From the NCBI GenBank assembly GCA_029256085.1, contig JAQSYP010000004.1, forward strand, positions 1 through 64,000: a stretch of DNA of 64,000 nucleotides, in the 5' to 3' direction. The stretch comes from Caryophanales bacterium. Lineage in GTDB: Bacteria; Bacillota; Bacilli; CAJFEE01. The position numbers and the translations under genes are program-made. The notes under the pieces are model-generated. The model was not told the origin of the DNA. It made no database searches and was given only the letters and a program-made list of their open reading frames with translations. Of the stretch, positions 7,123 to 40,821 are shown in pieces (the first letter of the stretch is position 1; each line of letters opens with the position of its first letter).

Positions 7123-7866
7123 ATGGTTAATATTGAGGGGAAAGTTGCTTTGGTAACAGGTGGCTCAAAAGGAATTGGAGCTTCTATTTGTAAGGTTCTA
7201 GCAAGTGAAGGTGTAAAGGTTGTAATAAATTACAATTCAAGTAAAGAAAGTGCGCAGTCTCTTGTTGATGAAATAAAAAATAATGGTGGAGAAGCCGACT
7301 TGTTTCAATGTGATGTATCAGAAATTGAAGAAGCAAAGGTATTAGTGGAAAACACTATTAATAAGTATGGTAGGCTTGACTTTTTAATTAATAATGCTGG
7401 TATTACTAGAGATAGGTCATTCAGAAAGCTTCTCCATGAAGACTGGAATAAAGTAATAGCTGTGAATTTATCTAGTGTTTACAATACGACAAATTCCGCA
7501 TTACCGCATCTTTTAAATTCTGAATGTGGAAGAATTATTAACATTTCATCCATTATTGGTCAGTCTGGAGGTTTTGGACAAACCAATTACGCTGCAGCTA
7601 AGGCAGGAATTATTGGCTTTACAAAGTCGCTTGCTCTGGAACTAGCTAAAACTGGTGTAACAGTAAATTCAATTTGTCCAGGATTTATTGAAACAAAAAT
7701 GGTATTAGATATTCCAGAGGAAATTAGAGATCAAATTAAGAATAAAATTCCTCAAAAAAGATTTGGTAAACCTGAGGAAATTGCCAAAGGTGTTTTATAT
7801 TTGATTAAAGATGGGGACTACATTACAGGTCAACAGTTAAATATTAATGGTGGTCTGTATATGTAA
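7123..7866 (+). CDS. phaB: PhaB, acetoacetyl-CoA reductase (SDR family)
   Basis: A 247-residue short-chain dehydrogenase of the FabG/PhaB group. It reduces acetoacetyl-CoA to (R)-3-hydroxybutyryl-CoA with NADPH, giving the PHA monomer. It has the cofactor-binding TGGSKGIG at residues 12-19, the NNAG motif near 90, catalytic Ser in INISSIIG (about 142), and the YAAAK pair (Tyr156, Lys160). The C-terminal GQQLNINGGLYM end is typical. GAGGAG lies upstream of the ATG. Its place between phaR and phaC supports PhaB over a fatty-acid FabG. Confidence 0.93.
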   Translation: MVNIEGKVALVTGGSKGIGASICKVLASEGVKVVINYNSSKESAQSLVDEIKNNGGEADLFQCDVSEIEEAKVLVENTINKYGRLDFLINNAGITRDRSFRKLLHEDWNKVIAVNLSSVYNTTNSALPHLLNSECGRIINISSIIGQSGGFGQTNYAAAKAGIIGFTKSLALELAKTGVTVNSICPGFIETKMVLDIPEEIRDQIKNKIPQKRFGKPEEIAKGVLYLIKDGDYITGQQLNINGGLYM

Positions 7867-7888
7867 GTAAGAGGGGGAAAATTTATTA

Positions 7889-8965
7889 ATGAGTAATGCT
7901 ATGTTAAATTTTTCAACAATTGGGTTCTCGAAAGAGGTAAATACATCACTAAAACGGTTTGAGAATGCTGCGAAAGTTTTGTGGAAAGACAGCGATCCAT
8001 TAGTAGGTCAAACTCCAAAAGAGATAATTTGGAGTAAAAATAAAACGAAATTATATAGATATATTCCTAAAGTGAAAAACCCTCATTCTGTTCCAATTTT
8101 ATTAATATACGCATTAATCAATAAACCATATATTCTTGATCTAACTCCAGGAAATAGCCTTGTTGAGTATTTAGTTAACAATGGATTTGATGTTTATTTA
8201 CTTGATTGGGGAACGCCAGGACTAGAGGATTCTTCTAATAAATTAGAGGACTATATTATAGACTTTATACCAAAAGCTGTAAGGAAAGTTCTAAGGAAAT
8301 CTGGAAAAGATGATATTTCCATTTTAGGTTACTGTATGGGTGGAACGATGGTTAGTATTTTTGCGTCTCTTTTTCCAGAGTTACCAATAAAAAATCTTAT
8401 ATTCTTAACAAGTCCATTTGACTTTTCCAATACAGGACTATATAAGAATTTATTACATGAGGAACATTTTAATTTAGATAAAACGATTGACACTTATAAA
8501 AATATCCCGCCTGAGATGATTGATTTCGGCAATAAAATGTTAAAACCTATTACAAATTTTATTGGTCCTTATGTATCATTAATAGATCGTTCAGAAAATA
8601 AGGAATTCGTAAAATCATGGAAACTAATGCAAAAATGGTTGAGTGATGGAATCCCATTTCCGGGTGAAGCATATAGGCAGTGGATAAGAGATTTTTATCA
8701 TAATAACAGCTTAATTAAAGCCGAATTAATTATGAGAGGTAAAAAAGTAAATCTAAAAAATATAACGGCAAATGTTCTTAATATTAGTGCCATTCATGAC
8801 CACATTGCAATGCCGTGTCAAGTTGAAGGATTACTTGATCAAATATCATCCGAAGATAAAATGAATGTTACTATTCCATCAGGTCATGTTTCAGTTGTGT
8901 TCGGTACTAAATCACTAACAATAACATATCCGACTATATTGAAATGGCTAGTTGAACGGTCATAA
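7889..8965 (+). CDS. phaC: PhaC, class IV PHA synthase catalytic subunit
   Basis: A 358-residue alpha/beta-hydrolase-fold polymerase that links (R)-3-hydroxyacyl-CoA units into polyester at the granule surface. The lipase-like box is GYCMGG with catalytic Cys149. The catalytic Asp is in SAIHDHIAMP (about 305) and the His in SGHVSVVFG (about 333). The conserved VYLLDWGTPG and FPGEAYRQW segments are present. The length fits class III/IV enzymes, which need a partner, here PhaR. It ends the phaRBC operon; only a weak hairpin (9029-9052) follows before the next small genes, so read-through is possible. Confidence 0.95.
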   Translation: MSNAMLNFSTIGFSKEVNTSLKRFENAAKVLWKDSDPLVGQTPKEIIWSKNKTKLYRYIPKVKNPHSVPILLIYALINKPYILDLTPGNSLVEYLVNNGFDVYLLDWGTPGLEDSSNKLEDYIIDFIPKAVRKVLRKSGKDDISILGYCMGGTMVSIFASLFPELPIKNLIFLTSPFDFSNTGLYKNLLHEEHFNLDKTIDTYKNIPPEMIDFGNKMLKPITNFIGPYVSLIDRSENKEFVKSWKLMQKWLSDGIPFPGEAYRQWIRDFYHNNSLIKAELIMRGKKVNLKNITANVLNISAIHDHIAMPCQVEGLLDQISSEDKMNVTIPSGHVSVVFGTKSLTITYPTILKWLVERS

Positions 8966-9513: not shown

Positions 9514-11223
9514 TTATTTACTATAAATGGTTGGACTTTTTTGATTTGAAATAAATTCAATTATTAGTAACGAATGTTTTTCAATAATTTTATTTTCGTT
9601 AATATAAGCATCGTAGTCGAAATTAATTGGTTCGACTCTAACGTTTTTAGTGTAATAATTTAAATCATTATTAAGTTTTCCTTCACTTATTAACTCGATA
9701 AGAACCTTCTTTTTTTCATCCTTTTGTAAAGTGTCTTTCCACCAGAGTGTTTTAGGCTTTATAGAATAATGTTTATAATAATCAAGCTTCATAAGGGATT
9801 CTATTATGTTTATATTTTTGAAATTATTTTCATTTAAAAAACTATAAAGTCTAAAAAACAAATCTTGATATTGATGGCCAATTCGAGACCAATTATTATT
9901 TTCCCAATAAGTACCGAATTCTTGAAAGAAGTCCCATGGTGTTTTGAACAAATTATTTATGATGTAGTTAACAGTATTCGTAAATTTACCACTATTCCAA
10001 AACTTCTCTAAAACATCTTCAACTTGCTTCATTCTAGTTACTTCATCAAAGTTTAGCACGCTATTTTTAAGAATTTCATATGGTGGGAAATCAATGTACT
10101 CATACTCGTATTTATTAGCATAATCTCTAATTTCGGTACCACGAAGCATTTTTAAGAATCCTAATTGTAATTCTTCAGGTCTCATTTCAAAAACATCATT
10201 AAATGTTTTTCTAAATGATTCGTAATCTTCTTCTGGTAGGCCTGCAATTAGATCAAGATGTAGATCAATTTTGCCACCACTTTTTATTTTTAAGATATTA
10301 TTTTTAAGTTTCTCGAAATTTTGTCTTCTATTAATTATTTTATTTGTTAATTCATTTGTAGACTGAATTCCAATTTCAAATCTAAATAACCCAGCAGGAG
10401 CATTGTCGTTCAAATAATCAATGATTTCTGGTTTAAGAATGTCTCCTGTAATTTCAAATTGGAAAACACAACCTGGCTTATGTTCTCTAATTAAAAAAGC
10501 AAAAATATCAAGTGCATAATCTTTATCTGTATTAAAGGTTCTATCGAGAAACTTAATCGTTTTTGCCCCATGATTCATTAGAAAGGTTAGATCATCTTTT
10601 ACACGGTCTTTATTAAAAAATCTCATACCGACTTCAGTTGACGAAAGACAATACTGACAGCTAAATGGACAACCTCTGCTTGTTTCAATATATGTAATTC
10701 GTTTTGGTAGATTTGGTAAATCCTCTTCAAATCTAAATGGGGAAGGGATAGAGTCTAATTGTATTTTATCTTGAGGTGAATTTGTAATTATTTGATTACC
10801 ATCACGATAAACAATACCTTTAACTTTTCTCAAATCTAAATCTTCAATATTGTTACATAACTCTTTAAAAGTGGCTTCTCCTTCACCGTAAATGATTAGA
10901 TCTATATAGTTTACGTTTGCTAAGATTTTATCTGAGTTATAGCTAACTTCTGGTCCACCAATAAAAATAACTGTAGATGGTGAAACTTTTTTGATTATTT
11001 GGGCAACCTTAAAAATATATTCTATATTCCATATATAACAACTAAATCCAACTATTTTATTTTTTCTCTTTAATATTTCTGTTGCAATATTTAAGATTGG
11101 ATCTTTAATAGTAAACTCTAAAAGTCTTGGAGAATAGTCTGGTTGTACATAGGCTTTTAAATATCTAATTGCTAAATTTGTATGAATGTATTTGGCGTTA
11201 ATTCCTACTAGAGTAATTTCCAT
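9514..11223 (-). CDS. B12-binding-domain radical SAM protein (DUF4080 type)
   Basis: A 569-residue protein. Residues 1-140 form a cobalamin-binding-like Rossmann domain (GINAKYIHTNLAIRYLK, FSCYIWN, FIGGPEVSY). Residues about 170-400 are a radical SAM core with the CxxxCxxC motif CPFSCQYC, binding the 4Fe-4S cluster and S-adenosylmethionine. The C-terminal 170 residues match the layout of DUF4080. Such proteins in Bacillus have no established substrate; methylthio or methyl transfer is plausible. The ATG of MEITLVG is chosen since AGGAGG lies 8 bases upstream; the upstream in-frame extension is unsupported. It is divergent from lutABC. Confidence 0.9.
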   Translation of the reverse strand: MEITLVGINAKYIHTNLAIRYLKAYVQPDYSPRLLEFTIKDPILNIATEILKRKNKIVGFSCYIWNIEYIFKVAQIIKKVSPSTVIFIGGPEVSYNSDKILANVNYIDLIIYGEGEATFKELCNNIEDLDLRKVKGIVYRDGNQIITNSPQDKIQLDSIPSPFRFEEDLPNLPKRITYIETSRGCPFSCQYCLSSTEVGMRFFNKDRVKDDLTFLMNHGAKTIKFLDRTFNTDKDYALDIFAFLIREHKPGCVFQFEITGDILKPEIIDYLNDNAPAGLFRFEIGIQSTNELTNKIINRRQNFEKLKNNILKIKSGGKIDLHLDLIAGLPEEDYESFRKTFNDVFEMRPEELQLGFLKMLRGTEIRDYANKYEYEYIDFPPYEILKNSVLNFDEVTRMKQVEDVLEKFWNSGKFTNTVNYIINNLFKTPWDFFQEFGTYWENNNWSRIGHQYQDLFFRLYSFLNENNFKNINIIESLMKLDYYKHYSIKPKTLWWKDTLQKDEKKKVLIELISEGKLNNDLNYYTKNVRVEPINFDYDAYINENKIIEKHSLLIIEFISNQKSPTIYSK

Positions 11224-11333
11224 TATGACCCTCCTTAGGTAATGTGAATATTTTACCAAAAAAAGCTGATAAATGCATTGGGTGAAAAAATTTGTATAGT
11301 AATACGTTCTAAATTTGAAAGGAGACAACAAAA

Positions 11334-12059
11334 TTGAAGAAAAATGTATCGCTCTTTACTACATGTATTGTTGACGTGTACTATCCGCAAGTCGGTGTTG
11401 CAACTCTTGAACTATTAGAAAGTTTAGGATGCAAGGTTGATTATCCAAAAGAACAAACTTGCTGTGGACAACCAGCATTCAATTCAGGTTATTTTAAGGA
11501 TTCAAAAAAATCTATGAGAAACATGATTAAAGTTTTTGAACACGCAGAGTATGTAGTATCACCTTCAGGATCATGTGCTTTTATGTTTAAAGAATATCCA
11601 CATATATTTGACGATGAACCTGAATGGAAGGTAAGGGCCGAAAAATTAGCTGCTAAAACATATGAACTGACACAATTCCTAGTCAATGTATTAGGTGTTG
11701 AGGATTTAGGTGCAAAACTTGTAGGAAAAGGTACATACCACACTTCTTGTCATATGACACGACTTTTAGGAGTTAAGGAAGAACCTTTTAAGCTGTTAAA
11801 TAAGGTTTCTAATCTAGAAATGATTCCTCTTCCAGATGCTGACAGATGCTGTGGATTTGGAGGAACATTTGCTGTTAAAATGTCGGATATTTCAGAACAA
11901 GTAGTAGACGAAAAAGCAAAATCAATTATTAGTACAGGTGCAAACTATTTAATTGGCGCAGATGCTGGTTGTCTATTAAATATTGCTGGAAGATTACAAC
12001 GACTAGGTAGAGAAGATATTAAAGTTCTACACATAGCTGAAGTATTAAATAGCAAATAA
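11334..12059 (+). CDS. lutA: LutA, lactate utilisation (Fe-S)-binding protein
   Basis: A 241-residue member of the CCG-domain family (GlpC/HdrB-like). It acts with LutB and LutC as a cytoplasmic iron-sulfur complex oxidising L-lactate to pyruvate. Two CCG motifs are present: [13 protein letters not shown] near residue 42 and [10 protein letters not shown] near 165, each with partner cysteines (TTCIVD and TSCHMTR). The start is TTG after GAAAGGAGA, which aligns with known LutA N-termini. It opens lutA-lutB-lutC. In B. subtilis the operon is controlled by LutR and SinR; no operator was identified here. Confidence 0.95.
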
Positions 12060-12085
12060 ATATTTATAGACTGGAGGAACGAACA

Positions 12086-13513
12086 ATGTCAATGAAATTT
12101 AGTGATGCTCCTTTTAAAGACCGTCTTGGAAAGGGTATCAATGATACATTTATGAGAAAAGCTGTCGCGGGAGCGCAAGAGCGATTAGCTGGTCGTCGTT
12201 TGTTAGCTGCCGAAACACTTGGTAATTGGGAACAATGGAGAGAGTTATCTGAAGAAATTCGTCAACATACAATAAATAATTTAGACTTCTATCTTAACCA
12301 ATTAACTGAAAATATTGAGAAGTTAGGTGGGCATGTTTTCTTTGCAGAGACAAAAGAAGATGCAACAAAATACATTGCTGACGTTGTTAAGAATAAGAAT
12401 GCAAAAAATATTGTTAAAGCAAAGTCTATGGTTACAGAAGAAATCAACTTAAATCATGTCTTACTTGATATGGGATGCGACGTTGTTGAATCTGATTTAG
12501 GCGAATGGATTCTGCAAGTTGATGATTGGGAACCACCATCTCATATCGTTACACCAGCATTACATAAAAACAGAGAACAAATTCGGGAAGTATTTGAAAG
12601 ACAAGGATATAAAGGAACATCTCAACCTGAAGAAATGGCACGTTTTGCACGAGAACGTTTACGTGAGAAATTTCTAGCGTGCGAAGTTGGGATTACAGGT
12701 TGTAATTTCGCCATCGCCGAATCCGGATCTGTTACGCTAGTAACGAATGAGGGTAATGGACGAATGGTAACTACAGTACCAAAAACTCAAATTTCGGTAA
12801 TGGGAATGGAAAGAATTGTTCCTACATTTGCTGATATGGAAGTCCTTGTTGGAATGTTAACGCGTAGTGCTGTAGGGCAAAAACTTACTAGTTACATTTC
12901 CGTAACAACTGGTCCAAAACGTCCAGATGAAGTAGATGGCCCCGAGGAATTTCATTTAGTAGTTGTTGATAATGGCCGTTCTAAAATATTAAAATCAGAG
13001 TTTAAACAAGTATTACAATGTATTAGATGTGCAGCATGTTTGAATGTATGTCCGGTATATAGACACGTTGGTGGGCACGCTTATGGATCAATATATTCAG
13101 GTCCAATTGGGGCGGTCATTACCCCTCTGTTAGGTGGATATAAAGATAGTAAGGAACTCCCATATGCTTCAACTTTGTGTGGTGCATGTACAGATGCATG
13201 TCCAGTAAAAATACCTTTACATCAATTACTTCTAAAGCATAGAAGAAATATTGTTGAAAAAGAGGGTCTTGCTCCTATTGCTGAACAATTAATTTTCAAG
13301 GGTTATGGAATGGGCTTTAGTAATACATCCCTATACAAGTTAGGTACAAAGTTTGCTCCGTCTGCACTTAAAATGATGGCGATAGATGGAAAGACAATAC
13401 ATGATGGTATTGGTCCCTTAAAAGGTTGGACATCTAGTCGTGACCTTCCTGTACCAACAAGAGAAAGATTTCGTGATTGGTACGAAAAAAGAGAAAAGGG
13501 AGGTAATAAATAA
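12086..13513 (+). CDS. lutB: LutB, lactate utilisation iron-sulfur protein
   Basis: A 475-residue protein of the LutB/YkgF family. The N-terminal 300 residues are the LUD-type domain ([17 protein letters not shown] near 205). Two 4Fe-4S clusters follow: [12 protein letters not shown] near residue 312 and [12 protein letters not shown] near 365. A C-terminal tail ends with [15 protein letters not shown]. It is the electron-carrying core of the LutABC complex. TGGAGG precedes the ATG. The stop overlaps the lutC start by one base, indicating translational coupling. Confidence 0.96.
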
Positions 13514-14226
13514 TGAGTGGAACAGTATTGAATAAAGAAAAGTTTTTAAGTAAAATTTCAGCTGCATTAGGAAGAAATGAAATTCCTAAATCCGTGGAAA
13601 GACCTAAGTGGAAACATAATGTTCAGTGGGAAGTAATGAATGATTTTACAAATGAACAACTAGTAGATGTATTGGTTGCACAGTGTCAAAATATTCATAC
13701 TGAAGCTACTGTTACTACTAAAGAAAATCTTGGTTCAGTCGTTAAGGAAATTATTAACAGATTCGAAGGGAAATCGGTTTTAACATCTGTTGATGAAAGA
13801 TTTGAACAATATAACCTAGATAAAACATTGGAAGAAATTGAAACTTCAGGTATAAACACTTATAAGTGGAACAAATCTATGTCAAGAGAAGACAATATTG
13901 GTTCAGCAGCTGCTACCGACTTTGGAATTACATTTTCAAGTTACACTATGGCTGAATCAGGGACTGTAACGTTGTACGCGTCGGATGAATTTGGACGTTC
14001 AGTTAGTTTATTGCCCCCATATTGGATTTGTATAATACCTAAGGAAACAATTGTACCACGGTTCACACAAGTTGCTGACGTTTATCATAAGATGGCTCAA
14101 CGTGGAGAGCGTATTCCAACTAGTTTAAATTTCGTATCAGGTCCATCAAATTCTGCTGATATTGAAATGAATTTAGTAGTTGGTGTACATGGTCCAATTA
14201 AGGCATTTTATATTATTGTAGATTAA
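13513..14226 (+). CDS. lutC: LutC, lactate utilisation LUD-domain protein
   Basis: A 237-residue LUD-domain (YkgG-type) protein, third member of the L-lactate oxidation complex. The conserved SAAATDFGITFSSYTMAESG block (near residue 135) and the NFVSGPSNSADIEMNLVVGV block at the C-terminus are clear. There are no cysteine clusters, as usual. It overlaps lutB by one base, with GGGAGG in the lutB tail. Two hairpins follow (14235-14268 and 14293-14321). Confidence 0.95.
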   Translation: MSGTVLNKEKFLSKISAALGRNEIPKSVERPKWKHNVQWEVMNDFTNEQLVDVLVAQCQNIHTEATVTTKENLGSVVKEIINRFEGKSVLTSVDERFEQYNLDKTLEEIETSGINTYKWNKSMSREDNIGSAAATDFGITFSSYTMAESGTVTLYASDEFGRSVSLLPPYWICIIPKETIVPRFTQVADVYHKMAQRGERIPTSLNFVSGPSNSADIEMNLVVGVHGPIKAFYIIVD

Positions 14227-14234
14227 AGTATATT

Positions 14235-14268
14235 CTGCAAACAAACAACCAAAGGTGTTTGTTTGCAG
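14235..14268 (+). terminator. Hairpin after lutC
   Basis: A perfect 13-bp stem CTGCAAACAAACA / TGTTTGTTTGCAG with an 8-base loop, followed by TTCATTTTAT rather than a strict T-run. It may protect the 3' end, while the next hairpin does the terminating. Confidence 0.65.
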
Positions 14269-14292
14269 TTCATTTTATAACTTCATTATTGT

Positions 14293-14321
14293 TGCTCTCA
14301 ATTTGAGGGCATTTTTTTTTG
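14293..14321 (+). terminator. Intrinsic terminator of lutABC
   Basis: TGCTCTCA / TGAGGGCA stem with one G-U pair, followed by ATTTTTTTTTT-type sequence. Confidence 0.85.
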
Positions 14322-14617
14322 CCATTTTTTGGTGAATTATCAAAACATATATGTTATCTTATTATTTGTATAATATTTATTATCTGGTACTAATTGCTGA
14401 TAATAAATTGTGTTGGACAAACATATAATCTAATAACATATAAAGTAAAAATTGCCATATTGTAAATGTGAACTTTATGTTACAATGTGTTTGTTGAAGG
14501 TTCACTTAGCTGTTATAGTGCAACAGGAGACTCTGTTATATAATAGAAATGTAGCGACAAAACAATCCAAATTAACCTATTGTTGTACACCTGCATAAAC
14601 TGTATCAGTTAAATAAT
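14322..14617. other. Long non-coding upstream region
   Basis: About 300 bases between the lut terminator and the oxidoreductase promoter. It contains AACAG-GAGACT-CTGTT (a small hairpin near 14520) and several AT-rich palindromic patches such as ACATATATGT. No coding frame with a ribosome binding site and no known RNA family was recognised. Confidence 0.5.
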
Positions 14618-14646
14618 TTGACACATTTATTTGAATACAATAAAAT
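14618..14646 (+). promoter_or_regulatory. Sigma-A promoter of the oxidoreductase operon
   Basis: TTGACA (14618-14623), a 17-base spacer and TAAAAT (14641-14646), close to consensus. Predicted start near 14653 gives a leader of about 55 bases containing an AACTAT/ATAGTT inverted repeat before the GGGGAGGA site. Confidence 0.8.
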
Positions 14647-14707
14647 TTAACTATGATAAAGATAATTATTATATAGTTATTTGCATAAATTTTGGGGAGG
14701 AAGAAAA

Positions 14708-15721
14708 ATGTCAATTTTGCCAAAAAAGAACAGACTAGGCTTCTATGAAATAAGGCTAGAATCAATCGGTGGTCTTGGGGCAAACTTAGCTGGTAAAATG
14801 CTTGCTGAAGCAGGTGTGCTAGGTCTAGGTTTGAATGGTTCTAACTTTTCTTCGTATGGTTCAGAGAAGAAAGGCTCACCAGTTAAATCATTTGTAAGAT
14901 TTTGTGACCCAGAAGTAGAAATTCGTGATCATAGTCCAGTTGAAGAGCCTCATGTAATAGGAGTATTTCATGAAGCGTTATATAAGATGGTTGATGTTGT
15001 AAGCGGTTTAAGTCCTGATGGGATAGTAATCGTAAACTCAACTCGTGAAGCAGATGAAATCAAAAAAGACTTAGGATTGAAATATGGAACTCTTGTTGTC
15101 TTAGATGCCTTAACTATAGCAGTTGAAGAAAAGACCAAGGTAAATACTGCAATGTTAGGTGCTTTATTTAGAGTATGTGATTTCCTTGACGCAGACGCGA
15201 TGAGGAATGTGATTAGAAAAACATTTGAAAAGAAATACCCTCACTTTGTAGAGCCGAATATTAGGACGTTTGATCGTGGTTATAATGAAGTAACTTTCAC
15301 AGAATATCCAGTTCCTGCAGATGCTGAAGGTATGTCATTCAAGCGTGCAGAAACACCTACAGGATATTTAACGCAAGCAATTGGTGGTTTGATTGAAGCT
15401 AATGGTAATAGTGTTAAAAAGGACTTATCTGGATCACGTCAAGGATTCTTACCTGATTATAATGCAGAGAAGTGTATCCACTGCGCAAAATGTGATACAG
15501 CATGTCCTGACTTCTGCTTCGTATGGGAAGAGGGAGAAGATAAGCGTGGACGTAAGCAAATGTTCCTAAAGGGTATCGATTATCAATTCTGTAAAGGTTG
15601 TCAAAAGTGTGTAGTTGCTTGCCCAACTGAAGCATTAACAACTTTACGTGAAACTTTAGGTTATGCTGATGAAAAGCGTGTTCCACATCAATTCCCTCTA
15701 ATAACTGGAGGTGCACAATAA
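14708..15721 (+). CDS. 2-oxoacid:ferredoxin oxidoreductase, gamma subunit fused to a 2x[4Fe-4S] domain
   Basis: A 337-residue protein. Residues 1-190 are the gamma subunit (POR_N-type gamma domain: IRLESIGGLGANLAGKMLAE, SYGSEKKGSPVKSFVRF). The C-terminal part carries two ferredoxin clusters, CIHCAKCDTACPDFC near residue 256 and CKGCQKCVVACP near 295, equivalent to the delta subunit. The ATG in MSILPKK follows GGGGAGGA. It overlaps the alpha-beta gene by one base. Electrons would flow from the TPP site through these clusters to ferredoxin. The substrate (pyruvate, a branched 2-oxoacid or 2-oxoglutarate) cannot be read from the sequence. Confidence 0.9.
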   Translation: MSILPKKNRLGFYEIRLESIGGLGANLAGKMLAEAGVLGLGLNGSNFSSYGSEKKGSPVKSFVRFCDPEVEIRDHSPVEEPHVIGVFHEALYKMVDVVSGLSPDGIVIVNSTREADEIKKDLGLKYGTLVVLDALTIAVEEKTKVNTAMLGALFRVCDFLDADAMRNVIRKTFEKKYPHFVEPNIRTFDRGYNEVTFTEYPVPADAEGMSFKRAETPTGYLTQAIGGLIEANGNSVKKDLSGSRQGFLPDYNAEKCIHCAKCDTACPDFCFVWEEGEDKRGRKQMFLKGIDYQFCKGCQKCVVACPTEALTTLRETLGYADEKRVPHQFPLITGGAQ

Positions 15722-18024
15722 TGACGATTATGAAAGAAGATAAAAACTTGAATACTAATATTAGTGAAATGCCAGAACAGTTAGTTACATTTGAATCAGG
15801 TAATGAAATGGCAGCAACTGCTGCTGCTCAAATTAACTATCATATTATGGGGTATTTCCCGATTACTCCTTCAACGGAGATTGCGCAATACCTAGATATG
15901 ATGAAAGCACGTGGACTTCACGACATTAAATTAATTGCAGCTGATGGTGAACATGGTTCTGCAGGTATAAACTATGGTGCATCTGTAGCGGGCGCAAGAG
16001 TTTTAAACGCGACAAGTGCAAATGGTTTATTGTATATGATAGAACAATTACCAGTTCAAGCAGGAACTCGTTTCCCGATGGTTATGAATCTAGTAACTCG
16101 CTCAGTATCAGGCCCGCTTGATATTCGTGGTGATCACTCTGATTTATACTATGCTTTAAATACTGGATGGGTTATATTAACTGCAAGAACTCCACAAGTA
16201 GTTTATGATATGAATATAATGGCACTTAAGATTGCTGAACATGCAAAAGTACGCTTGCCGGTTATGGTGGCATATGATGGTTTCTTTACTTCCCACCAAA
16301 AACGTAAAGTAAGCTACTTTAAGGATAGAGAAGTAGTGCAAAAATTTGTAGGTCCAATGCCAACAGGTTATCCGAACACTTCAGATCCGACTAAGCCAAT
16401 TACAGTTGGAGCACATATGAATGGTGACGATCTATTAAACAACCATTACCAGCAGTCTGAAGCAATCTATAATGCTATGGAAGTATATCAAGAGATTGCT
16501 AGCGAATATGAAAAAATTTCAGGTCGTAAGTACGAAATACTAGATTTATATAAAATGGAAGATGCGGAAGTTGCATTATTCTTATTAAACTCTGCAGCAG
16601 AATCAGCTAAAGATGTAGTTGATCGCCTTAGAGCGAAAGGGATTAAAGCAGGAGTTATTAGTCCTAACATTATCCGTCCATTCCCTGCCGCTCAAATTCG
16701 TGAAGCATTAAAGAATGTTAAATCACTATTAATCGGTGAGAGAGCAGACTCATACGGTGGGCATGGTCCTAACTTAACGCATGAAGTAAAATCAGCTCTA
16801 CAAGAAGATAAAGAAAACAAAACAGTAGTTCTAAGTAGAGTTTTCGGATTAGGTGGTAAAGACTTTTATGCAGAAGATGCTGAAGCATTCTTTGATTTAG
16901 CAATCGACGCAGCTGAAAAAGGGTACGCTGAAAAGTATTTTGATTACTATGGAATTGTTCCTGGAAAGGAAGTAAATGCACTTAACCCAGTAATTGAATC
17001 TCATCAAGGTAAATATAACTCTGGTTTAATTGAAGTTACTGAAGATCTAGAAACAAATAAATTAAAAGTTAAAATCCCGCCTTTAAGAAACTTAACTGTA
17101 AAACCTAAGCGTATTGCAGCTGGACACGGTGCTTGTCCTGGTTGCGGAATCTTCTCTGCACTTGAATTATTCTTCAAGGGTATTGAAGGTGACGTAGTAG
17201 TATTATTCCAAACAGGCTGTGGTTATGTTACAACAACTGCATATCCGTATAGTTCTCATAAACAAACGATGATTCATAACTTATTCCAAAATGGACCTGC
17301 AACATTATCTGGTGCTCTCGAAGGATTTATGGAAATGAAGCGTCGCGGAGAAATTCAAGTTTCTGATGATGTAACATTTGTAATGGTTACTGGTGACGGT
17401 GGTATGGATATCGGTATGGGTTCAGCTATCGGTACAGCATTACGTAATCATAAATTAATTATGCTTGAGTATGATAATGAAGGTTATATGAACACTGGTT
17501 CACAAATGTCTTACTCAACGCCTATTGGCCATATGACTTCAACAACTTCAGTTGGTAAAACACAACAAGGTAAGTCTTTCCAACATAAGGATACTGCTCA
17601 GATTATGGCATCAACTCACATTCCTTACGTGTTTACTGGATCTGAAGCTTTCCCTGAAGATTTAGTTAAGAAGGCAGCAAAGGCGCAATGGTATGCCCAG
17701 AATTATGGAACAGTTTACGGGAAATTACTAATTACTTGTCCATTAAACTGGAAATCAGATGATAGTCAAGGTCAAGTTATAATGCAAGCTGCTGTTAATT
17801 CTAACTTCTTCCCGCTATATGAAGTTGAACGAGGAATTACCAATATTACTTGGAATCCCGAGGAGAAGAAGAAAAAGATTACTTTAGAAGAATGGTTAGC
17901 ATTCATGGGTAAGACGAAGCACATGCTAAAGCCTGAAAATGCTCATATAATGAAAGAATTTGAAAACGAAGTAGAAAGAAGATGGGGTATTCTTAAGGCA
18001 AAACACGAAAACCCTCTATTATAA
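15721..18024 (+). CDS. 2-oxoacid:ferredoxin oxidoreductase, alpha and beta subunits fused
   Basis: A 767-residue fusion. Residues about 20-440 are the alpha subunit, with GNEMAATAAAQINYH, the FPITPSTEIA motif and SADGEHGSAG-like and RGDHSDLY segments. Residues about 455-767 are the TPP-binding beta subunit, with AGHGACPGCGIF holding paired cysteines and the TPP motif GDGGMDIGMG (about 559) followed by YDNEGYMNTG. It decarboxylates a 2-oxoacid to acyl-CoA with ferredoxin as acceptor. The order alpha-beta in one chain and gamma-delta in another differs from the two-gene KorAB system of aerobic bacilli. It ends with a strong terminator. Substrate undetermined. Confidence 0.92.
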   Translation: MTIMKEDKNLNTNISEMPEQLVTFESGNEMAATAAAQINYHIMGYFPITPSTEIAQYLDMMKARGLHDIKLIAADGEHGSAGINYGASVAGARVLNATSANGLLYMIEQLPVQAGTRFPMVMNLVTRSVSGPLDIRGDHSDLYYALNTGWVILTARTPQVVYDMNIMALKIAEHAKVRLPVMVAYDGFFTSHQKRKVSYFKDREVVQKFVGPMPTGYPNTSDPTKPITVGAHMNGDDLLNNHYQQSEAIYNAMEVYQEIASEYEKISGRKYEILDLYKMEDAEVALFLLNSAAESAKDVVDRLRAKGIKAGVISPNIIRPFPAAQIREALKNVKSLLIGERADSYGGHGPNLTHEVKSALQEDKENKTVVLSRVFGLGGKDFYAEDAEAFFDLAIDAAEKGYAEKYFDYYGIVPGKEVNALNPVIESHQGKYNSGLIEVTEDLETNKLKVKIPPLRNLTVKPKRIAAGHGACPGCGIFSALELFFKGIEGDVVVLFQTGCGYVTTTAYPYSSHKQTMIHNLFQNGPATLSGALEGFMEMKRRGEIQVSDDVTFVMVTGDGGMDIGMGSAIGTALRNHKLIMLEYDNEGYMNTGSQMSYSTPIGHMTSTTSVGKTQQGKSFQHKDTAQIMASTHIPYVFTGSEAFPEDLVKKAAKAQWYAQNYGTVYGKLLITCPLNWKSDDSQGQVIMQAAVNSNFFPLYEVERGITNITWNPEEKKKKITLEEWLAFMGKTKHMLKPENAHIMKEFENEVERRWGILKAKHENPLL

Positions 18025-18032
18025 GACTTATT

Positions 18033-18065
18033 GAGCTGCAACTTTTGTTGCAGCTCTTATTTTTA
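18033..18065 (+). terminator. Intrinsic terminator of the oxidoreductase operon
   Basis: GAGCTGCAAC-TTTT-GTTGCAGCTC, a perfect 10-bp stem followed by TTATTTTTAA. Confidence 0.93.
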
Positions 18066-18160
18066 AGATAAACCACTAAGTTTTCCGGCAGGAGTCGAGC
18101 GATTAGTATACAGAAAATAAATAAAAAAATTCATACTTTAACGCATATTTTTTGTCATAA

Positions 18161-18264
18161 TTCGACAATTGGAAGATAAAACTCCTGAAGTGGAAGATAA
18201 ACCGAGACAACTGGCAGATAAAATGACTCAACTGGAAGATATAACACTCAAACTGGAAGATAAA
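18161..18264. repeat. 21-bp tandem array (CTGGAAGATAAA core, 5 copies)
   Basis: Cores start at 18169, 18190, 18211, 18232 and 18253, exactly 21 bases apart. Each has the form (C/T/G)TGG(A/C)AGATA(A/T)A. In one forward frame the array reads as heptads of the type QLEDKxx without interruption, but the frame is closed upstream by TAA and has no ATG or ribosome binding site. A perfect Spo0A-box-like heptamer, TTCGACA, sits at 18161-18167 at its left edge. Position is between an operon terminator and a hypothetical gene. Confidence 0.93.
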
Positions 18265-18451
18265 ATTTTTTCAATAAATTTTTATATTATTTGAAGCTAA
18301 GTTTTTTGTAGTATTATAGCGTTAAAAATAATGCAACCCTAATCATCATATAATTTTTGTTGGAAGAATTGTAAAAAGGTATTACAATATAATCATATAT
18401 AAATTTGTGCATTGGAATATTCAACTATAAGATAACTGAAAGTGTGATTTC

Positions 18452-18949
18452 GTGAAAAATAAACCACTTATACTAATGTTTATAACTGTATTTGTAATTT
18501 TTCTGTTTATGATAGAATTTTTTATGCTCGCTGGTAAAAGTGAAACGAATGAAAAGCCGATTATTAATAGTGGGTTTGTTAGATTAACTGATGAAGAAAT
18601 TATAAGTGTTATAAGGCAGGTATATAGTAATTTACATATACACTCGTCAAAAGAAGATATTATTACGGTTTTTGGAACAAATTTCAGTTCGGAGAGTCCT
18701 GATAAAGTATTAGGAAACACTTGGAATTATGAATATTTCAGAAATTATTCAGCGTCAGCTAATGGGGAGAATAAGAACGATATAGAACTATTAAAGGAAA
18801 GAAATCTAGGTATAAAACTTACGATTAAATTTAATGAACATAATTTAGTACATGAAGCAGAAATGCTATATGTAATGGGTAAATCTAATATAATATATAA
18901 AGTCTCGTTTAATTCTGATGGAACTGTAAATGAAACGATAATTAATTAA
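18452..18949 (+). CDS. Hypothetical membrane-anchored protein
   Basis: A 165-residue protein. Residues 5-27 form one hydrophobic N-terminal segment (signal anchor or uncleaved signal). The rest is a soluble, probably extracellular domain with DEEIISVIRQVYSNLHIHSSKEDI and a beta-rich C-terminal half. The start is GTG, since the upstream ATGs are out of frame; the ribosome binding site is weak (GAAAGTGTGA). No family recognised; a small PepSY- or cystatin-like fold is possible but unproven. It stands alone and shares a terminator with convergent glxK. Confidence 0.75.
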   Translation: MKNKPLILMFITVFVIFLFMIEFFMLAGKSETNEKPIINSGFVRLTDEEIISVIRQVYSNLHIHSSKEDIITVFGTNFSSESPDKVLGNTWNYEYFRNYSASANGENKNDIELLKERNLGIKLTIKFNEHNLVHEAEMLYVMGKSNIIYKVSFNSDGTVNETIIN

Positions 18950-20952: not shown

Positions 20953-21759
20953 ATGATAAATGAAGGTGTTAACTACCTAGAAAAAACAGCGATTAGAAAA
21001 AAAGATCTAATTAACAATTCTATATTAGAATTTTATGTGCGAGCAATTCTTGCAACATTATATTTAGGATTAGCATTAGTTGTATCACTCAGATTAGGCG
21101 ATATGTTTCATCAAGTAGATTCTCCTGCTACGTATTTTATGGCAGCTGCATTTTTCGGAATGGCTCTAATTTTAATCATTTACGGTGGTGCTGAACTTTT
21201 CACTGGTAATACTATGTATTTTACAGTATCGACAATCCGAAAATCCACTACTATGGCTGATTTGACCAAAAATTGGATTCATACTTATGTTGGTAATTTA
21301 ATAGGCGCTGTTATAATTGCCGCTATTTTATATTTTGCGGGCGTATTCAAGGATATACCTGAAGAACATTTTCTATATTTAATTGCTCATAAAAAAGCTA
21401 CGGGAGCATTTGTAAATTTATTATTTAAAGGTATACTTTGTAACTGGTTAGTATGTTTAGCTTGTTTTCTTCCTATGATGATCAAGGAAAATGGTGCAAA
21501 AATTGCCATGATTATGTTAGTAATTTTCATGTTCTTTATTTCTGGATATGAGCATAGTGTTGCAAATATGGTTTATTTTGCGGTTACAATTGCACAATCT
21601 GGTTTTGAGGTAGTAACAATACAAGAAGTTGTAAGTAATCTAATTCCAGTAACAATTGGTAATATTATCGGAGGATCAGTTTTTGTTGGGATGTTGTATA
21701 CGTATTTTGCTAGAGGACAAGAGAAGAATAGTATTGCTCTTGAAAAGAAATCTGCTTAA
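20953..21759 (+). CDS. Formate/nitrite transporter (FNT family)
   Basis: A 268-residue channel protein with six predicted membrane segments. FNT signature regions are present: GGAELFTGNTMYF near residue 77 and GILCNWLVCLACF near 155, the latter being the second omega-loop region. FNT pentamers conduct formate, nitrite or related monovalent anions. The start follows ACGAGGTG. It sits just upstream of the Moco operon but has its own terminator (21773-21821). The neighbourhood suggests nitrite or formate traffic linked to molybdoenzymes, which is inference. Confidence 0.92.
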   Translation: MINEGVNYLEKTAIRKKDLINNSILEFYVRAILATLYLGLALVVSLRLGDMFHQVDSPATYFMAAAFFGMALILIIYGGAELFTGNTMYFTVSTIRKSTTMADLTKNWIHTYVGNLIGAVIIAAILYFAGVFKDIPEEHFLYLIAHKKATGAFVNLLFKGILCNWLVCLACFLPMMIKENGAKIAMIMLVIFMFFISGYEHSVANMVYFAVTIAQSGFEVVTIQEVVSNLIPVTIGNIIGGSVFVGMLYTYFARGQEKNSIALEKKSA

Positions 21760-21772
21760 ATTATAACTGTTT

Positions 21773-21821
21773 AGACCGACGAGAAGCACATTCAAAGTGT
21801 GCTAAAACGTTGGTCTTTTTT
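21773..21821 (+). terminator. Nested-hairpin terminator after the FNT gene
   Basis: The outer stem AGACCGACG / CGTTGGTCT encloses a second hairpin AGCACA-TTCAAAG-TGTGCT and is followed by T6. Confidence 0.85.
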
Positions 21822-21925
21822 AAATTTGATATCGTTGATCAGCTACTATTTTTGCTTTTTTATTTTTTAATTCCTTGTAACATGTTATACTTAATTTAGA
21901 CAAATTTTAGACAAAGGTGATGTCT

Positions 21926-22954
21926 ATGACAAAAAATAATAATGCCCCATTAGATACGTTGAAACGACCACTTTTCGACTTGAGGATATCTATTACTGAT
22001 AGATGTAATTTCAGATGTACTTATTGTATGCCATCTGATATATTCCCAACAGATTATGGTTTTCTTCCAAAAACTACTATTCTTTCATATGAAGAAATTA
22101 TTAAAATTGCAACTAATTTTGTTGAGTTAGGTGTACGTAAAGTTAGAGTTACAGGTGGAGAACCGTTACTTCGAAAAGATGTTGTCCAACTAGTAGAAGG
22201 CCTAAATAAGATTGAGAACTTAAGAGAAATTGGTTTAACTACTAACGGGGTCCTTCTTCCTAAATATGCTAAGCAGTTAAAGAATGCAGGATTAAAACGA
22301 GTTAACGTTAGTTTAGATGCAATAAATAATGATGTTTTTACGAAAATGAATGGTAATAAAGGTACAGTTACAGATGTGCTTAAAGGTATTGACGCAGCTT
22401 TAGATGCTGGCTTAGGTGTTAAAATAAACATGGTAGTCAGAAAAGGCTGGAATGAGCAAGAAATTGTTCCAATGGCTAAATACTTTAAAGAAAAATCAAA
22501 TATAACTTTAAGATTTATAGAATTTATGGATGTTGGTGCAAGTAATGGTTGGAGATTAGATGATGTAATTCCTAGCAAGGAAATTTTAAACGAATTACAA
22601 AAATTCTCACAACTTGAACCTGTTAATCCTGATTACTATGGTGAAGTTGCCAAGAGATATAAATACTTAGACTCAGATTCTGAAATCGGATTTATAACTT
22701 CTGTTACAGAAACATTCTGTTCAAGCTGTACAAGAATTAGAATTTCTGCTGATGGTAAAATATACACGTGCTTATTTGCATCTGAAGGTCATGACATTAA
22801 GTCTATTGTTAGAAATGGTGCAACAAATGATGATATAAAAGATTATATTATCGATGTGTGGAATAAGAGAGAAGACAGATATTCAGATGTTAGGCATATT
22901 AATACTTTCCCTGAAAAGAGAAAGAAAATTGAAATGTCTTATATAGGGGGATAA
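21926..22954 (+). CDS. moaA: MoaA, GTP 3',8-cyclase (radical SAM)
   Basis: A 342-residue enzyme catalysing the first step of molybdenum cofactor synthesis, converting GTP to 3',8-cyclo-7,8-dihydro-GTP. The N-terminal radical SAM cluster is CNFRCTYC (Cys27, 31, 34) and the second 4Fe-4S cluster is FCSSCTRIR... with a third Cys in IYTC near residue 280. VRVTGGEPLLRKD is the SAM-binding glycine motif. The ATG of MTKNNN is chosen because AAAGGTG lies 6 bases upstream; GTG and ATG codons further upstream overlap that site. The usual C-terminal GG is present (YIGG). First gene of moaA-moaB-moaE-moaD-moaC-moeB. Confidence 0.96.
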   Translation: MTKNNNAPLDTLKRPLFDLRISITDRCNFRCTYCMPSDIFPTDYGFLPKTTILSYEEIIKIATNFVELGVRKVRVTGGEPLLRKDVVQLVEGLNKIENLREIGLTTNGVLLPKYAKQLKNAGLKRVNVSLDAINNDVFTKMNGNKGTVTDVLKGIDAALDAGLGVKINMVVRKGWNEQEIVPMAKYFKEKSNITLRFIEFMDVGASNGWRLDDVIPSKEILNELQKFSQLEPVNPDYYGEVAKRYKYLDSDSEIGFITSVTETFCSSCTRIRISADGKIYTCLFASEGHDIKSIVRNGATNDDIKDYIIDVWNKREDRYSDVRHINTFPEKRKKIEMSYIGG

Positions 22955-22956
22955 AA

Positions 22957-23469
22957 ATGAGTGTTCACGAGCATAAATCAAAAGCACCAAAATCTGTTAA
23001 TTGTATGATTATTACAGTATCAGATACACGTGATTTTGATACGGACACAAGTGGTAAATTAATGGAAGAGTTACTACTAGGCAATAGCCATACTGTGACT
23101 TTACGAAGAATTGTAAAAGACGATCGTAGTCAAATTGAAAGCGCTTTAAATGAAGGTTTAATAAATGATAATATTGATATTATTTTAATAAATGGTGGCA
23201 CTGGTCTTGCAAAAAGGGATGTCACTATAGAAACATTAAAACCAATGCTTGATAAAGAAATGGTTGGGTTTGGAGAAATCTTCAGAATGCTAAGTTATAC
23301 TGAGGATATTGGTTCAGCAGCAATTCTTAGTAGAGCCATCGCTGGAGTTAAGGATGGCAAGGCGATTTTTGCAACACCTGGTTCAAAGGGTGCAGTTAAG
23401 CTTGCGATGGAAAAATTAATTTTGCCAGAGCTCTCTCATGTCGTATGGGAGCTTAGAAGGTCTCACTAG
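22957..23469 (+). CDS. moaB: MoaB, molybdenum cofactor biosynthesis protein
   Basis: A 170-residue MoaB/Mog-family protein that binds molybdopterin and probably adenylylates it before metal insertion. The conserved INGGTGLAKRDVTIETL and FGEIFRMLSYTEDIGSAAILSRA motifs are clear, as is ATPGSKGAVKLAMEKLI. It starts 2 bases after moaA, with GGGGG in the moaA tail as ribosome binding site. Confidence 0.95.
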   Translation: MSVHEHKSKAPKSVNCMIITVSDTRDFDTDTSGKLMEELLLGNSHTVTLRRIVKDDRSQIESALNEGLINDNIDIILINGGTGLAKRDVTIETLKPMLDKEMVGFGEIFRMLSYTEDIGSAAILSRAIAGVKDGKAIFATPGSKGAVKLAMEKLILPELSHVVWELRRSH

Positions 23470-38094: not shown

Positions 38095-39636
38095 ATGGAT
38101 ACAAAACAATACGTAAATAAAAAGCAGTTAGAAAATAAAATTGATAGAAATAAAACTATTTTAAAGGAAACATTTAATAAAAGCCAGGACTATATAAGTA
38201 GAGAAATCTCTTTAGGGAATGGAAAGTATAAAATATTAATTAATTTTTTTGATGGTTTAGCTGATTCGAAATATATTAATGATTTTATAATTGAAACTAT
38301 TCTTAATCATGAGAAACATATACTACTTAACTTTATAGAAAATGGTCCAGAAGGTGTTTTAAATGTATTTTTTAATACTGCTATTTCTTCAAGTAGTATT
38401 TCAAAAACTAAGAGCTTAAGTGAAATATATCTAAACTTAATTGAGGGTAATACAGTAATAATTTTTGATGGAATTAATGAGGCATTTATAGTTCCTACAC
38501 CAGGTTGGAAAGATAGAGGTGTAGGTGAAACAACTGTAAATAATGTCATTAGAGGACCGAGGGAAAGCTTCACAGAAACTCTTAGAACGAACACCGCCCT
38601 TATACGTAGAAGAATAAAGGATGAGAGTCTTTGCTGTGAACAGATCAGAATTGGTAATATGACTAAAACAATAGTTGCCTTAATGTATTTAGACGGTGAA
38701 GTAGATGAAAATGTCCTTTCATTACTTAAAGAACGATTAAACAAAATTGATATCAAAGGAATACTTGAAACAGGAAACATAGAGGAATTTATAACTGAAG
38801 AAATGTATACACCATTTCCAACAGCATTTAATTCAGAAAGACCTGATACTGTAGCTGCTAACATATTAGAAGGTAAAGTTGCAATAGTCGTTGATGGAAC
38901 GCCATTTGTATTAACAGTTCCAGCACTATTTTCTGAGTTTTTCACATCAGCAGATGATTATTACAACAAATGGGATATATCAAGTGCAGTTCGTTTATTA
39001 AGATACCTTGCTTTTTTTATTGCGTTATTAGGACCATCTGTATATATAGCTTTAACGACGTTTCATCAAGAGATGATTCCAACACAATTATTAATGAGTC
39101 TTGCTGCACAACGTGAAGGTGTACCATTTCCTGCTTTTGTTGAAGCCTTAATAATGGAAGCGACGTTTGAGGTTATCAGGGAAGCTGGTCTTAGAATGCC
39201 AAAACCACTTGGACAGGCAATATCGATTGTTGGTGCGTTAGTAATTGGGCAATCGGCAGTAGAAGCTGGATTTGTTTCCGCAGCAATGGTAATTGTTGTC
39301 GCAATAACAGCATTATCGTCAATTGTTTTCCCAGCTTATAATATGGCTATTCCAGTTAGAATGCTAAGATTTTTAATGATGTCACTTGCTGCCTCCTTCG
39401 GGTTATTTGGGATTGCTGTAGGACTATTCACTTTATTAATCCACTTAACATCCATAAGGTCATTTGGTGTAAACTATATGATTCCTTATGCTCCAAATAG
39501 TAAATATTTACTTAGAGATACACTAATTAGAGCTCCCTATAAATCATTTAATAAAGAAATTCAGAATTCAAATATAAAATTTAAACCAATCGTATTAAAT
39601 ACACCGAGGGATAGTAATGATAATGAGAAAAACTAA
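38095..39636 (+). CDS. Spore germinant receptor A subunit (GerA family)
   Basis: A 513-residue inner-spore-membrane protein. The N-terminal half is the soluble GerAA domain with RGPRESFTETLRTNTALI, the signature of the family. The C-terminal half has about five membrane segments, with PFPAFVEALIMEATFEVIREA and a glycine-rich GQAISIVGALVIGQSAVEAGF. It acts with B and C subunits as a nutrient-gated channel. It overlaps the C-subunit gene by 20 bases. Operon order is A-C-D-B. The germinant cannot be predicted. Confidence 0.94.
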   Translation: MDTKQYVNKKQLENKIDRNKTILKETFNKSQDYISREISLGNGKYKILINFFDGLADSKYINDFIIETILNHEKHILLNFIENGPEGVLNVFFNTAISSSSISKTKSLSEIYLNLIEGNTVIIFDGINEAFIVPTPGWKDRGVGETTVNNVIRGPRESFTETLRTNTALIRRRIKDESLCCEQIRIGNMTKTIVALMYLDGEVDENVLSLLKERLNKIDIKGILETGNIEEFITEEMYTPFPTAFNSERPDTVAANILEGKVAIVVDGTPFVLTVPALFSEFFTSADDYYNKWDISSAVRLLRYLAFFIALLGPSVYIALTTFHQEMIPTQLLMSLAAQREGVPFPAFVEALIMEATFEVIREAGLRMPKPLGQAISIVGALVIGQSAVEAGFVSAAMVIVVAITALSSIVFPAYNMAIPVRMLRFLMMSLAASFGLFGIAVGLFTLLIHLTSIRSFGVNYMIPYAPNSKYLLRDTLIRAPYKSFNKEIQNSNIKFKPIVLNTPRDSNDNEKN

Positions 39637-40819
39637 ATTAATAATTATATTATGTACAATATTGCTTTTATCGGGTTGTTATAACAGAAGAGAATTAAAT
39701 GACCTAGCAATAGCTGTTGGTATGGCAATTGATTATAAGGATGGTAAATATTCTGTCACGGTGCAAGTTGTTGATCCAAATTCTGCGTCAGCTAGAAAAC
39801 CTGCATCTGGGTCAACTCCAGTAATAATTTATAACACAAAAGCTGATTCAATATTTGAAGCGGTAAGAAAAATGACTACTATTTCACCGAGAAAGATATA
39901 TTTTTCACATGTGCGAATAATTGTTATTGGTGAAGAGTTAGCGAGAAAAGGTATTGGTGAGTCACTTGAGATGGTTACACGAGATCCAGAGTTTCGTTCT
40001 GATTTTCATGTAGTAATTTCAAAAGAAATAGATGCAAAAAAAGTGTTGTCAGTATTAACTCCACTAGAAAATTATAGTGCACAAAAATTATTTGATTCAT
40101 TAGCTGTTTCAGAAAAAGCTTGGGCGCCAACAAATGCTATCGAGTTTGATGCTTTAATTTCTGACATGTTAACGTATGGAAAAAGTCCAGTAATTACAGG
40201 AGTTGTAGCTAAAGGTGATGTAGATGATGGAAGTGAAATGAAAAATATAGAAAAAACTAACCCGATTACTAAGTTGAAGTTTTCAGGTTTAGGAGTTATT
40301 AAGGGGGATAAATTAGTTGGTTGGTTAGATGAAGTTGAAAGTAAAGGTTATAACTACATAATTGGTGAAGTTCAAAGTACTGTAGGACCAATTGAGTGTC
40401 CTGATAAAGGAAAAGTAATCATAGAAGTAAACAATGTAAAATCCAATATTAAGGGTAAATTTGTTAACGGAAAACCAAAAATTAAAGTTGAATTAAACTA
40501 TGAAGTAAACGTTGCAGAAGTTCTTTGCAAAAATTTGAACTTAACTAATCCTAAACATATTGAAATTCTTGAAAAAAACACAGAAGAGCGAAATATAGAA
40601 ATTCTAAAGACATCAGTAAAAAAATCAAAAAAATTAGGGGCAGATATTTATGGGTTTGGGGTTGCATTGTATAGAGATAATCCAGAGGAGTGGCACAAAA
40701 TCGAGAAAAAATGGGCTGAAAGTGGGTTTAAAGAAGTTGAAGTAGAATATAAGTCAGAATGCAAAGTAAGAAGGACTGGAACAACAAGTGAATCATATTT
40801 GAAAGATATAAAGGAGTAA
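39617..40819 (+). CDS. Spore germinant receptor C subunit lipoprotein (Ger(x)C)
   Basis: A 400-residue Ger(x)C-family lipoprotein. The signal peptide ends in LLLSGC, a perfect lipobox with lipidated Cys21 or nearby. CYNRRELNDLAIAVGMAIDY is the conserved mature start. Domain layout is as in GerAC (three alpha/beta domains, SGLGVIKGDKLVGWLDE in the middle). The ATG at 39617 is 6 bases after GAGGG; another ATG two codons on is possible. It overlaps the A subunit and is followed 2 bases later by the small D gene. Confidence 0.94.
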   Translation: MIMRKTKLIIILCTILLLSGCYNRRELNDLAIAVGMAIDYKDGKYSVTVQVVDPNSASARKPASGSTPVIIYNTKADSIFEAVRKMTTISPRKIYFSHVRIIVIGEELARKGIGESLEMVTRDPEFRSDFHVVISKEIDAKKVLSVLTPLENYSAQKLFDSLAVSEKAWAPTNAIEFDALISDMLTYGKSPVITGVVAKGDVDDGSEMKNIEKTNPITKLKFSGLGVIKGDKLVGWLDEVESKGYNYIIGEVQSTVGPIECPDKGKVIIEVNNVKSNIKGKFVNGKPKIKVELNYEVNVAEVLCKNLNLTNPKHIEILEKNTEERNIEILKTSVKKSKKLGADIYGFGVALYRDNPEEWHKIEKKWAESGFKEVEVEYKSECKVRRTGTTSESYLKDIKE

Positions 40820-40821
40820 AA

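Follow-up and report, generated by a model that had tools for sequence, protein, structure and literature searches.

The 64,000-nucleotide stretch of DNA analysed here, which we call the window, forms the start of contig JAQSYP010000004.1 of a Caryophanales bacterium of the class Bacilli and carries two adjacent genes (referred to below as por) whose products hold all four parts, alpha, beta, gamma and delta, of a PorCDAB-type 2-oxoacid:ferredoxin oxidoreductase. Judging from sequence comparison, we consider, with a probability of roughly 0.78, that the pair encodes a two-chain pyruvate:ferredoxin (or flavodoxin) oxidoreductase derived from porCDAB by the joining of gamma to delta and of alpha to beta, an enzyme whose substrate and acceptor are ones that we infer. 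The acetyl-CoA of Bacilli is usually attributed to pyruvate dehydrogenase or pyruvate formate-lyase (PFL); the two-chain enzyme would stand beside these as a third acetyl-CoA enzyme of the class, on which some lineages may depend mainly or entirely. The gene pair is common in Bacilli and mostly ordinary in kind, and what is noteworthy is a gene content without 2-oxoacid dehydrogenase E2 in the window's family together with a conserved pair of motifs in the upstream DNA.

Architecture and relatives of the two chains

The first gene (14708–15721, plus strand), which begins with an ATG at 14708, encodes a gamma-delta chain of 337 amino acids in which Pfam models placed a POR domain (PF01558, 111 bits) at residues 21–193 and a 4Fe-4S dicluster, with two 4Fe-4S motifs, at about residues 251–311. 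The second gene (15721–18024, plus strand) overlaps the end of the first by one base, at 15721, and encodes an alpha-beta chain of 767 amino acids made up of two thiamine pyrophosphate (TPP) domain halves and domain II (POR_N, 34–259, 190 bits; PFOR_II, 282–386; TPP_enzyme_C, 548–655). Both fusions had been proposed in an initial annotation made from the sequence alone, and both were borne out; the same annotation had put the start at 14618, where the -35 hexamer of a predicted promoter lies, the gene itself starting at 14708.

TPP, proximal-cluster and ferredoxin-cluster residues of the PorCDAB type were all present in the window's chains, and PFOR and OOR chains of the PDB were among the matches to the alpha-beta chain. 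T49, E77, R127 and N591 of the alpha-beta chain aligned with T31, E64, R114 and N996 of pyruvate:ferredoxin oxidoreductase (PFOR), residues that we take to have catalytic roles; E77, R127 and N591 were found in 30/30 fused sequences, and position 49 held T in 28 and S in two. Cysteines C472, C475, C500 and C673 were likewise present in all 30, and the eight cysteines of the gamma-delta chain (C256, C259, C262, C266, C295, C298, C301 and C305) in 63/63 aligned rows, 51 of them distinct and three from loci with masked stretches. Among family models, PorA (PRK09622, 309 bits) scored best on the alpha part, followed by PadG (220), VorA (199) and OOR (194), and PorB (PRK11865, 211 bits) scored best on the beta part, followed by VorB (187), OOR (152) and PadI (130), while the gamma-delta chain exceeded the subfamily cut-off of TIGR02175 (117 bits versus 81).

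Fifty alpha parts, 30 of them fused and few belonging to enzymes of known substrate, were placed in a tree, in which all 30 fused parts formed one clade with a support of 100/100. The VOR and KOR enzymes of the window's own genome lay outside this clade, and OOR was found elsewhere, grouped with two split enzymes. NifJ joined the fused clade on long branches, for which this join was flagged; in a tree without NifJ, KOR and VOR the clade stayed intact and had a Sulfurovum alpha subunit as its neighbour, a join that was also on long branches. A FastTree of the beta parts again gathered the fused rows on one side of a branch (0.98). Since the alpha and beta trees each group the fused rows, a single fusion lineage is likely. 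Of the outcome that the initial annotation had named as refuting its reading, half came about: the phylogeny put the pair into a single clade whose members share its fusion, but a measured substrate was found for none of them. As for the path of fusion, the genes in the split operon of Peptoclostridium acidaminophilum run gamma, delta, alpha, beta, and two chains are therefore the expected product of joining neighbours pairwise; starting from a porC-porD-porA-porB order, gamma would have been joined to delta and alpha to beta.

Compared with four-subunit PorCDAB, the pair has the same four parts in the order gamma-delta-alpha-beta, the same active-site and cluster residues and its best family-model scores, and Sulfurovum supplied the nearest unfused alpha outside NifJ in the trees; it differs in having two chains rather than four, in its long separate branch and in falling below the pyruvate equivalog cut-offs. 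NifJ shares the domains and the aligned residues and likely catalyses the same reaction, but it is one chain of ~1,170 amino acids with another domain order, the window's chain scored only 202 bits with TIGR02176 (cut-off 911), and the alpha-beta chain and the NifJ of the window's genome matched at only 29% across 391 positions. Chain B (315 amino acids) of oxalate oxidoreductase (PDB 5c4i, from Moorella) matched the gamma and ferredoxin parts of the gamma-delta protein, whereas the alpha and beta of that enzyme are separate chains, PIRP (Arg) stands there in place of the window's PITP (T49), and it occupies another branch of the tree. KorAB, which the window's genome also encodes (L169), belongs to the same superfamily and has two chains as well, but its gamma is fused to alpha and its beta stands alone, the window's pair scored 95 bits with TIGR03710 against a cut-off of 483, and KorAB is no member of the fused clade. 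Neither the gamma-alpha fusion of KorAB nor the single chain of NifJ is seen in the window's pair, which the initial annotation had rightly set apart from both enzymes.

The view that the enzyme is unusual did not survive a wider search. A scan of genome contigs gave at least 581 stretches encoding a relative, and in the best 80 of these (the named loci, at 75–81% identity) a gamma-delta match lay directly 5' of the alpha-beta gene in 80/80, being partial in L034 and L047. The titles of these 80 were mostly of Bacillaceae-type genera, and two odd ones, Chryseobacterium sp. ISL-80 and Pseudomonas sp. ISL-84, may be mislabelled. Full-length fused matches were present in 31 of the 151 genomes sampled from the class. 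In a sample of the phylum, 235 of 249 genomes gave some match; among the matches listed, it was full-length and unbroken in the window's genome (G000) and in G023, G220, G216 and G044 and partly masked in G153, and in many other genomes it consisted of separate alpha or beta stretches or lay within NifJ-sized frames. A larger fusion of 1,526 amino acids in G153 was rejected, as masked bases had produced it artificially. A fused copy with 53% identity occurs in Monoglobus pectinilyticus, the one annotated fused record examined, where its products bear the generic names 'thiamine pyrophosphate-dependent enzyme' and '2-oxoacid:acceptor oxidoreductase family protein'. In searches of the open-licence PubMed Central literature we recognised neither a characterised gamma-delta/alpha-beta enzyme nor a description of the upstream motif, which is not proof of absence, and the two-chain variant of pyruvate:ferredoxin oxidoreductase is apparently without earlier characterisation.

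Substrate and direction of the reaction

In the reaction that we propose, TPP and the proximal 4Fe-4S cluster would be held by the alpha and beta halves, pyruvate, supplied for example by the adjoining lactate oxidation genes, would be decarboxylated on TPP, electrons would pass from the proximal cluster through the two gamma-delta clusters to ferredoxin, and the acetyl group would be taken by CoA. When oxygen is scarce the output would be acetyl-CoA and low-potential electrons, both this direction and the induction at low oxygen being presumed. A route from lactate to pyruvate to acetyl-CoA with ferredoxin as acceptor, which the initial annotation had thought conceivable, would be in keeping with the genes at hand. 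According to an excerpt of PMC9424855, the strict aerobe Brevibacillus massiliensis shows high ferredoxin-linked oxidation of 2-oxoglutarate and very low pyruvate:ferredoxin activity, and these data therefore offer a precedent for ferredoxin-linked 2-oxoacid oxidation in aerobic bacilli.

The best argument for pyruvate comes from G001, the other genome of the window's family that was analysed (listed as 100% complete and 1% contaminated), since it encodes a single POR-domain protein and neither PFL, E2 nor an E1-alpha of pyruvate dehydrogenase over the cut-off was found in it (best E1-alpha match 6.4e-6); no PF00115 protein was found there either. Provided that this assembly is complete, no candidate for turning pyruvate into acetyl-CoA other than the two-chain enzyme was found there among the enzyme families searched. 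G001 gave the same alpha-beta score as L072 (Candidatus Harrysmithimonas galli, a chicken metagenome-assembled genome), and the gamma-delta chains of the two are 100% identical.

Four POR-domain proteins are encoded in the window's genome (2.63 Mb in 17 contigs, listed as 100% complete): that of the two-chain enzyme, a NifJ (L168; 1996 bits with TIGR02176), a KOR-type enzyme (L169; TIGR03710, 705 bits) and a VOR-type enzyme (L167; VorB model, 560 bits versus a cut-off of 399). The genome also has PFL. A haem-copper oxidase subunit (523 bits) was found as well, along with a second PF00115 protein of 757 amino acids that we read as a nitric oxide reductase; NarG had no match, the best E1-alpha match reached only 8.5e-7, and E2 (PF00198) was not found. 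The initial annotation had called the host aerobic, which agrees with the oxidase but is too simple a label, given PFL, NifJ, the VOR-type and KOR-type enzymes and the failure to find E2. In this genome the two-chain enzyme, NifJ and PFL together may stand in for pyruvate dehydrogenase. Also counted for pyruvate were the separate VOR-type and KOR-type enzymes and an FNR-type box found in 57/79 upstream regions (described below).

Across the class sample, E1-alpha over the cut-off was present in 128/151 genomes and lacking in 9 of the 31 with fused por versus 14 of the 120 others (p 0.024, relatedness not corrected); these 23 genomes were assigned by E-value, and their number agrees with the tally of 128. 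E2, searched in 27 chosen genomes out of the 151, was not found in nine, five of them with fused por (G000, G001, G253, G274 and G255, the last listed as 84% complete) and four without. PFL was found in 14/31 fused-por genomes and 38/120 others (p 0.20), and NarG over the cut-off in 13/31 versus 24/120 (Fisher p 0.018, relatedness not corrected); a correlation of fused por with nitrate respiration was set aside as weak on this account.

Several observations weigh against a pyruvate-cleaving enzyme. The pyruvate equivalog cut-offs were not reached (PRK09622, 309 of 590 bits; PRK11865, 211 of 405; PorC_Meth_Thtga, 108 of 270), so that no model names the substrate, and the aligned active-site residues are probably common to several 2-oxoacid enzymes, making other substrates possible. 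With a NifJ far over its cut-off and PFL, the window's genome need not leave pyruvate to the two-chain enzyme. E1-alpha over the cut-off accompanies fused por in 22/31 genomes of the class, and the two-chain enzyme is therefore an addition in most and would be a replacement in some lineages only. Because G001 is itself a metagenome-assembled genome, its absences may be assembly gaps, and it encodes an acetolactate-synthase-like protein (313 bits, cut-off 538) that scored 200 bits with a pyruvate oxidase model (cut-off 742). An AlphaFold model of the alpha-beta chain, built from 13 alignment rows, was poor (mean predicted local distance difference test score, pLDDT, of 46), and the upstream region of the window has no FNR-type box, its best match carrying three mismatches.

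Activity on a substrate other than pyruvate, be it 2-oxoisovalerate, an aryl 2-oxoacid or a broad range of 2-oxoacids, for example in amino-acid breakdown, would account for the good scores of PadG, VorA and VorB, would leave pyruvate to the available NifJ, and would conflict with no measured substrate found in the clade. We nevertheless hold it to be improbable, as the PorA and PorB models score higher, the window's genome has VOR-type and KOR-type enzymes of its own, G001 has no other POR-domain protein beside the gene content described above, and lactate oxidation next door would yield pyruvate. Even less credit is due to the reverse direction, in which the enzyme would serve as a pyruvate synthase, forming pyruvate from acetyl-CoA, CO2 and reduced ferredoxin, the last reduced in relatives by a nearby Etf/FixC-type complex. 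EtfB-, EtfA- and FixC-like genes do occur in the downstream flank of 32, 29 and 26 of the 80 named loci, their representatives matching EtfB, Etf-alpha-type and FixC models below cut-off in every case; however, other genes intervene between them and por, no such cluster stands beside por in the window, and both the lactate-oxidation neighbourhood and the FNR-type box suit pyruvate breakdown better, for which we consider pyruvate synthesis very improbable.

Conserved motifs upstream of por

The initial annotation rightly pointed to a long non-coding region before por, which lies downstream of the end of lutC at 14226 and holds two terminator-like stems and two copies of the motif CTGTTATA (14510–14517 and 14533–14540, both plus strand, 23 bp apart). 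We compared 79 upstream regions of 300 nt each (78 named loci and the window), with expectations taken from shuffles. CTGTTATA was present on either strand in 70/79 regions versus 1.2 expected, its background in the remainder of the loci being 0.013 per 300 nt, and an FNR-type box (TGTGA-N6-TCACA with at most one mismatch) in 57/79 versus 0.6 expected, 53 of the 57 sitting 75–120 nt before the gamma-delta gene. In 33 further loci outside the named set, CTGTTATA or a one-letter variant was found in 20 and the box in 10. Motifs of Rex and CodY were found in none of the 79 regions, and cre in four with one pattern and in none with another.

Successive CTGTTATA copies were spaced by 22 bp in 34/40 cases, compared to 23 in the window. 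Across 1.71 Mb of loci, tandem pairs at 21–23 bp, with one mismatch per pair allowed, occurred 54 times. By their labels, 52 lie 5' of the gamma-delta gene, and the remaining two, in L047 (a partial gene match) and L160 (outside the labelling set), lie there by position; because of overlap or close kinship between some loci, the 54 are not a count of independent events. Six loci (L118, L125, L128, L129, L131 and L133) had an extra copy 141–142 nt downstream, which in five of them read CTGTTATAAT. The motif also stood before pfl of the window's genome (L193, C1:195700-196700): the 600 nt preceding the gene hold three exact copies, at about -243, -205 (in reverse orientation) and -55, and CTGTTACA, a near copy read by eye, follows 23 bp after the last of them. 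One copy was found in 2/4 pfl upstream regions of genomes without fused por. Two copies 23 bp apart are also contained in a primer that was used, according to an excerpt of PMC5289569, with the Geobacillus thermoglucosidasius pfl promoter. Two results speak against a regulatory role: in 13 genomes with fused por, 12 of the 16 upstream regions of pfl (600 nt, either strand) had neither CTGTTATA nor CTGTTATT, and no CTGTTATA copy preceded the NifJ, VOR or KOR genes of the window's genome.

From this pattern, CTGTTATA is probably the binding site of a putative regulator. We further suggest, tentatively, that the tandem operator (22–23 bp) may mark an undescribed regulon of Bacilli for low-oxygen pyruvate cleavage, comprising por and in some lineages pfl, and that in the window's family, in neither genome of which E2 was found, ferredoxin-linked enzymes may carry central carbon oxidation even with a haem-copper oxidase present. 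If so, the conserved sites would point to a regulator and give a handle on the conditions under which a facultative bacillus turns to oxidising pyruvate with ferredoxin. The main rival of an operator is that the copies are promoter elements only (the extended -10, TGnTATAAT) or inherited non-coding sequence. CTGTTATAAT fits this consensus, such copies lie at about -90 to -170 in 15 loci of the class, and the copies missing before pfl agree with it; yet the letter following 107 CTGTTATA copies was T in 55%, C in 18% and A in only 23%, and neither the regular 22-bp spacing, the confinement of all 54 tandem pairs to the 5' side of the gamma-delta gene nor the three copies before pfl would be expected of it, leaving this explanation doubtful. 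Single CTGTTATA copies were also seen in two Evansella loci (L052, ~12285; L063, ~13384), 5' of a small protein ending in CE(D/N)CEGEI.

The near-consensus sigma-A promoter of the initial annotation does exist as a predicted site (TTGACA-17-TAAAAT, 14618–14646, plus strand, 11/12 consensus matches), but 14180–18500 holds 12 promoter-like sites versus 17.7 expected from shuffles and TTGACA-N17-TANNAT recurs in only 4/79 upstream regions, the window among them; as it shows neither excess nor conservation, the element alone is weak evidence. A ribosome-binding-site-like sequence, GGGGAGGA (14694–14701, plus strand), was read before the ATG, and an Rfam search of 14200–14760 returned one chance match only, to a snoRNA family (21 bits, cut-off 65).

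Genes around por

Directly upstream, as the initial annotation had stated, lie lutABC-like lactate oxidation genes (11334–14226, plus strand; LutB, TIGR00273, 647 bits versus a cut-off of 445; CCG and LUD domains). A lutB homologue was found in the upstream flank of 24/80 named loci, a lactate permease (LctP over cut-off) in 13 loci and an LldR-like regulator (below cut-off) in 14. A single operon of lut and por was rejected, as two terminator-like stems (14235–14268 and 14293–14311, plus strand) stand between lutC and por, and the lut genes are predicted to be transcribed separately; an intrinsic-terminator-like stem (18033–18056, plus strand) follows the alpha-beta gene. Another recurrent neighbour is a B12-binding-type radical SAM protein (9514–11331, minus strand), a homologue of which lies near por in 53/80 named loci and for which all 25 NCBIfam models listed scored below their cut-offs. 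Radical SAM, lutABC and por are kept together in the window and, in another order, in G001. Because related genomes inherit gene order by descent, these neighbourhood counts are not independent.

Farther downstream, at 20953–23469 (plus strand), the window encodes a formate/nitrite transporter followed by a MoaA that exceeds its cut-off and by a protein resembling MoaB, and a MoaB-like gene also lies 3' of por in G001 (L156). Spore germination genes (GerA, GerAC and a spore permease) at 38095–42194 (plus strand) fit the description of the host as a spore former. At 7123–8965 (plus strand), a short-chain dehydrogenase is encoded with an alpha/beta-hydrolase protein that has a PhaC_N match, possibly for the synthesis of a storage polyester.

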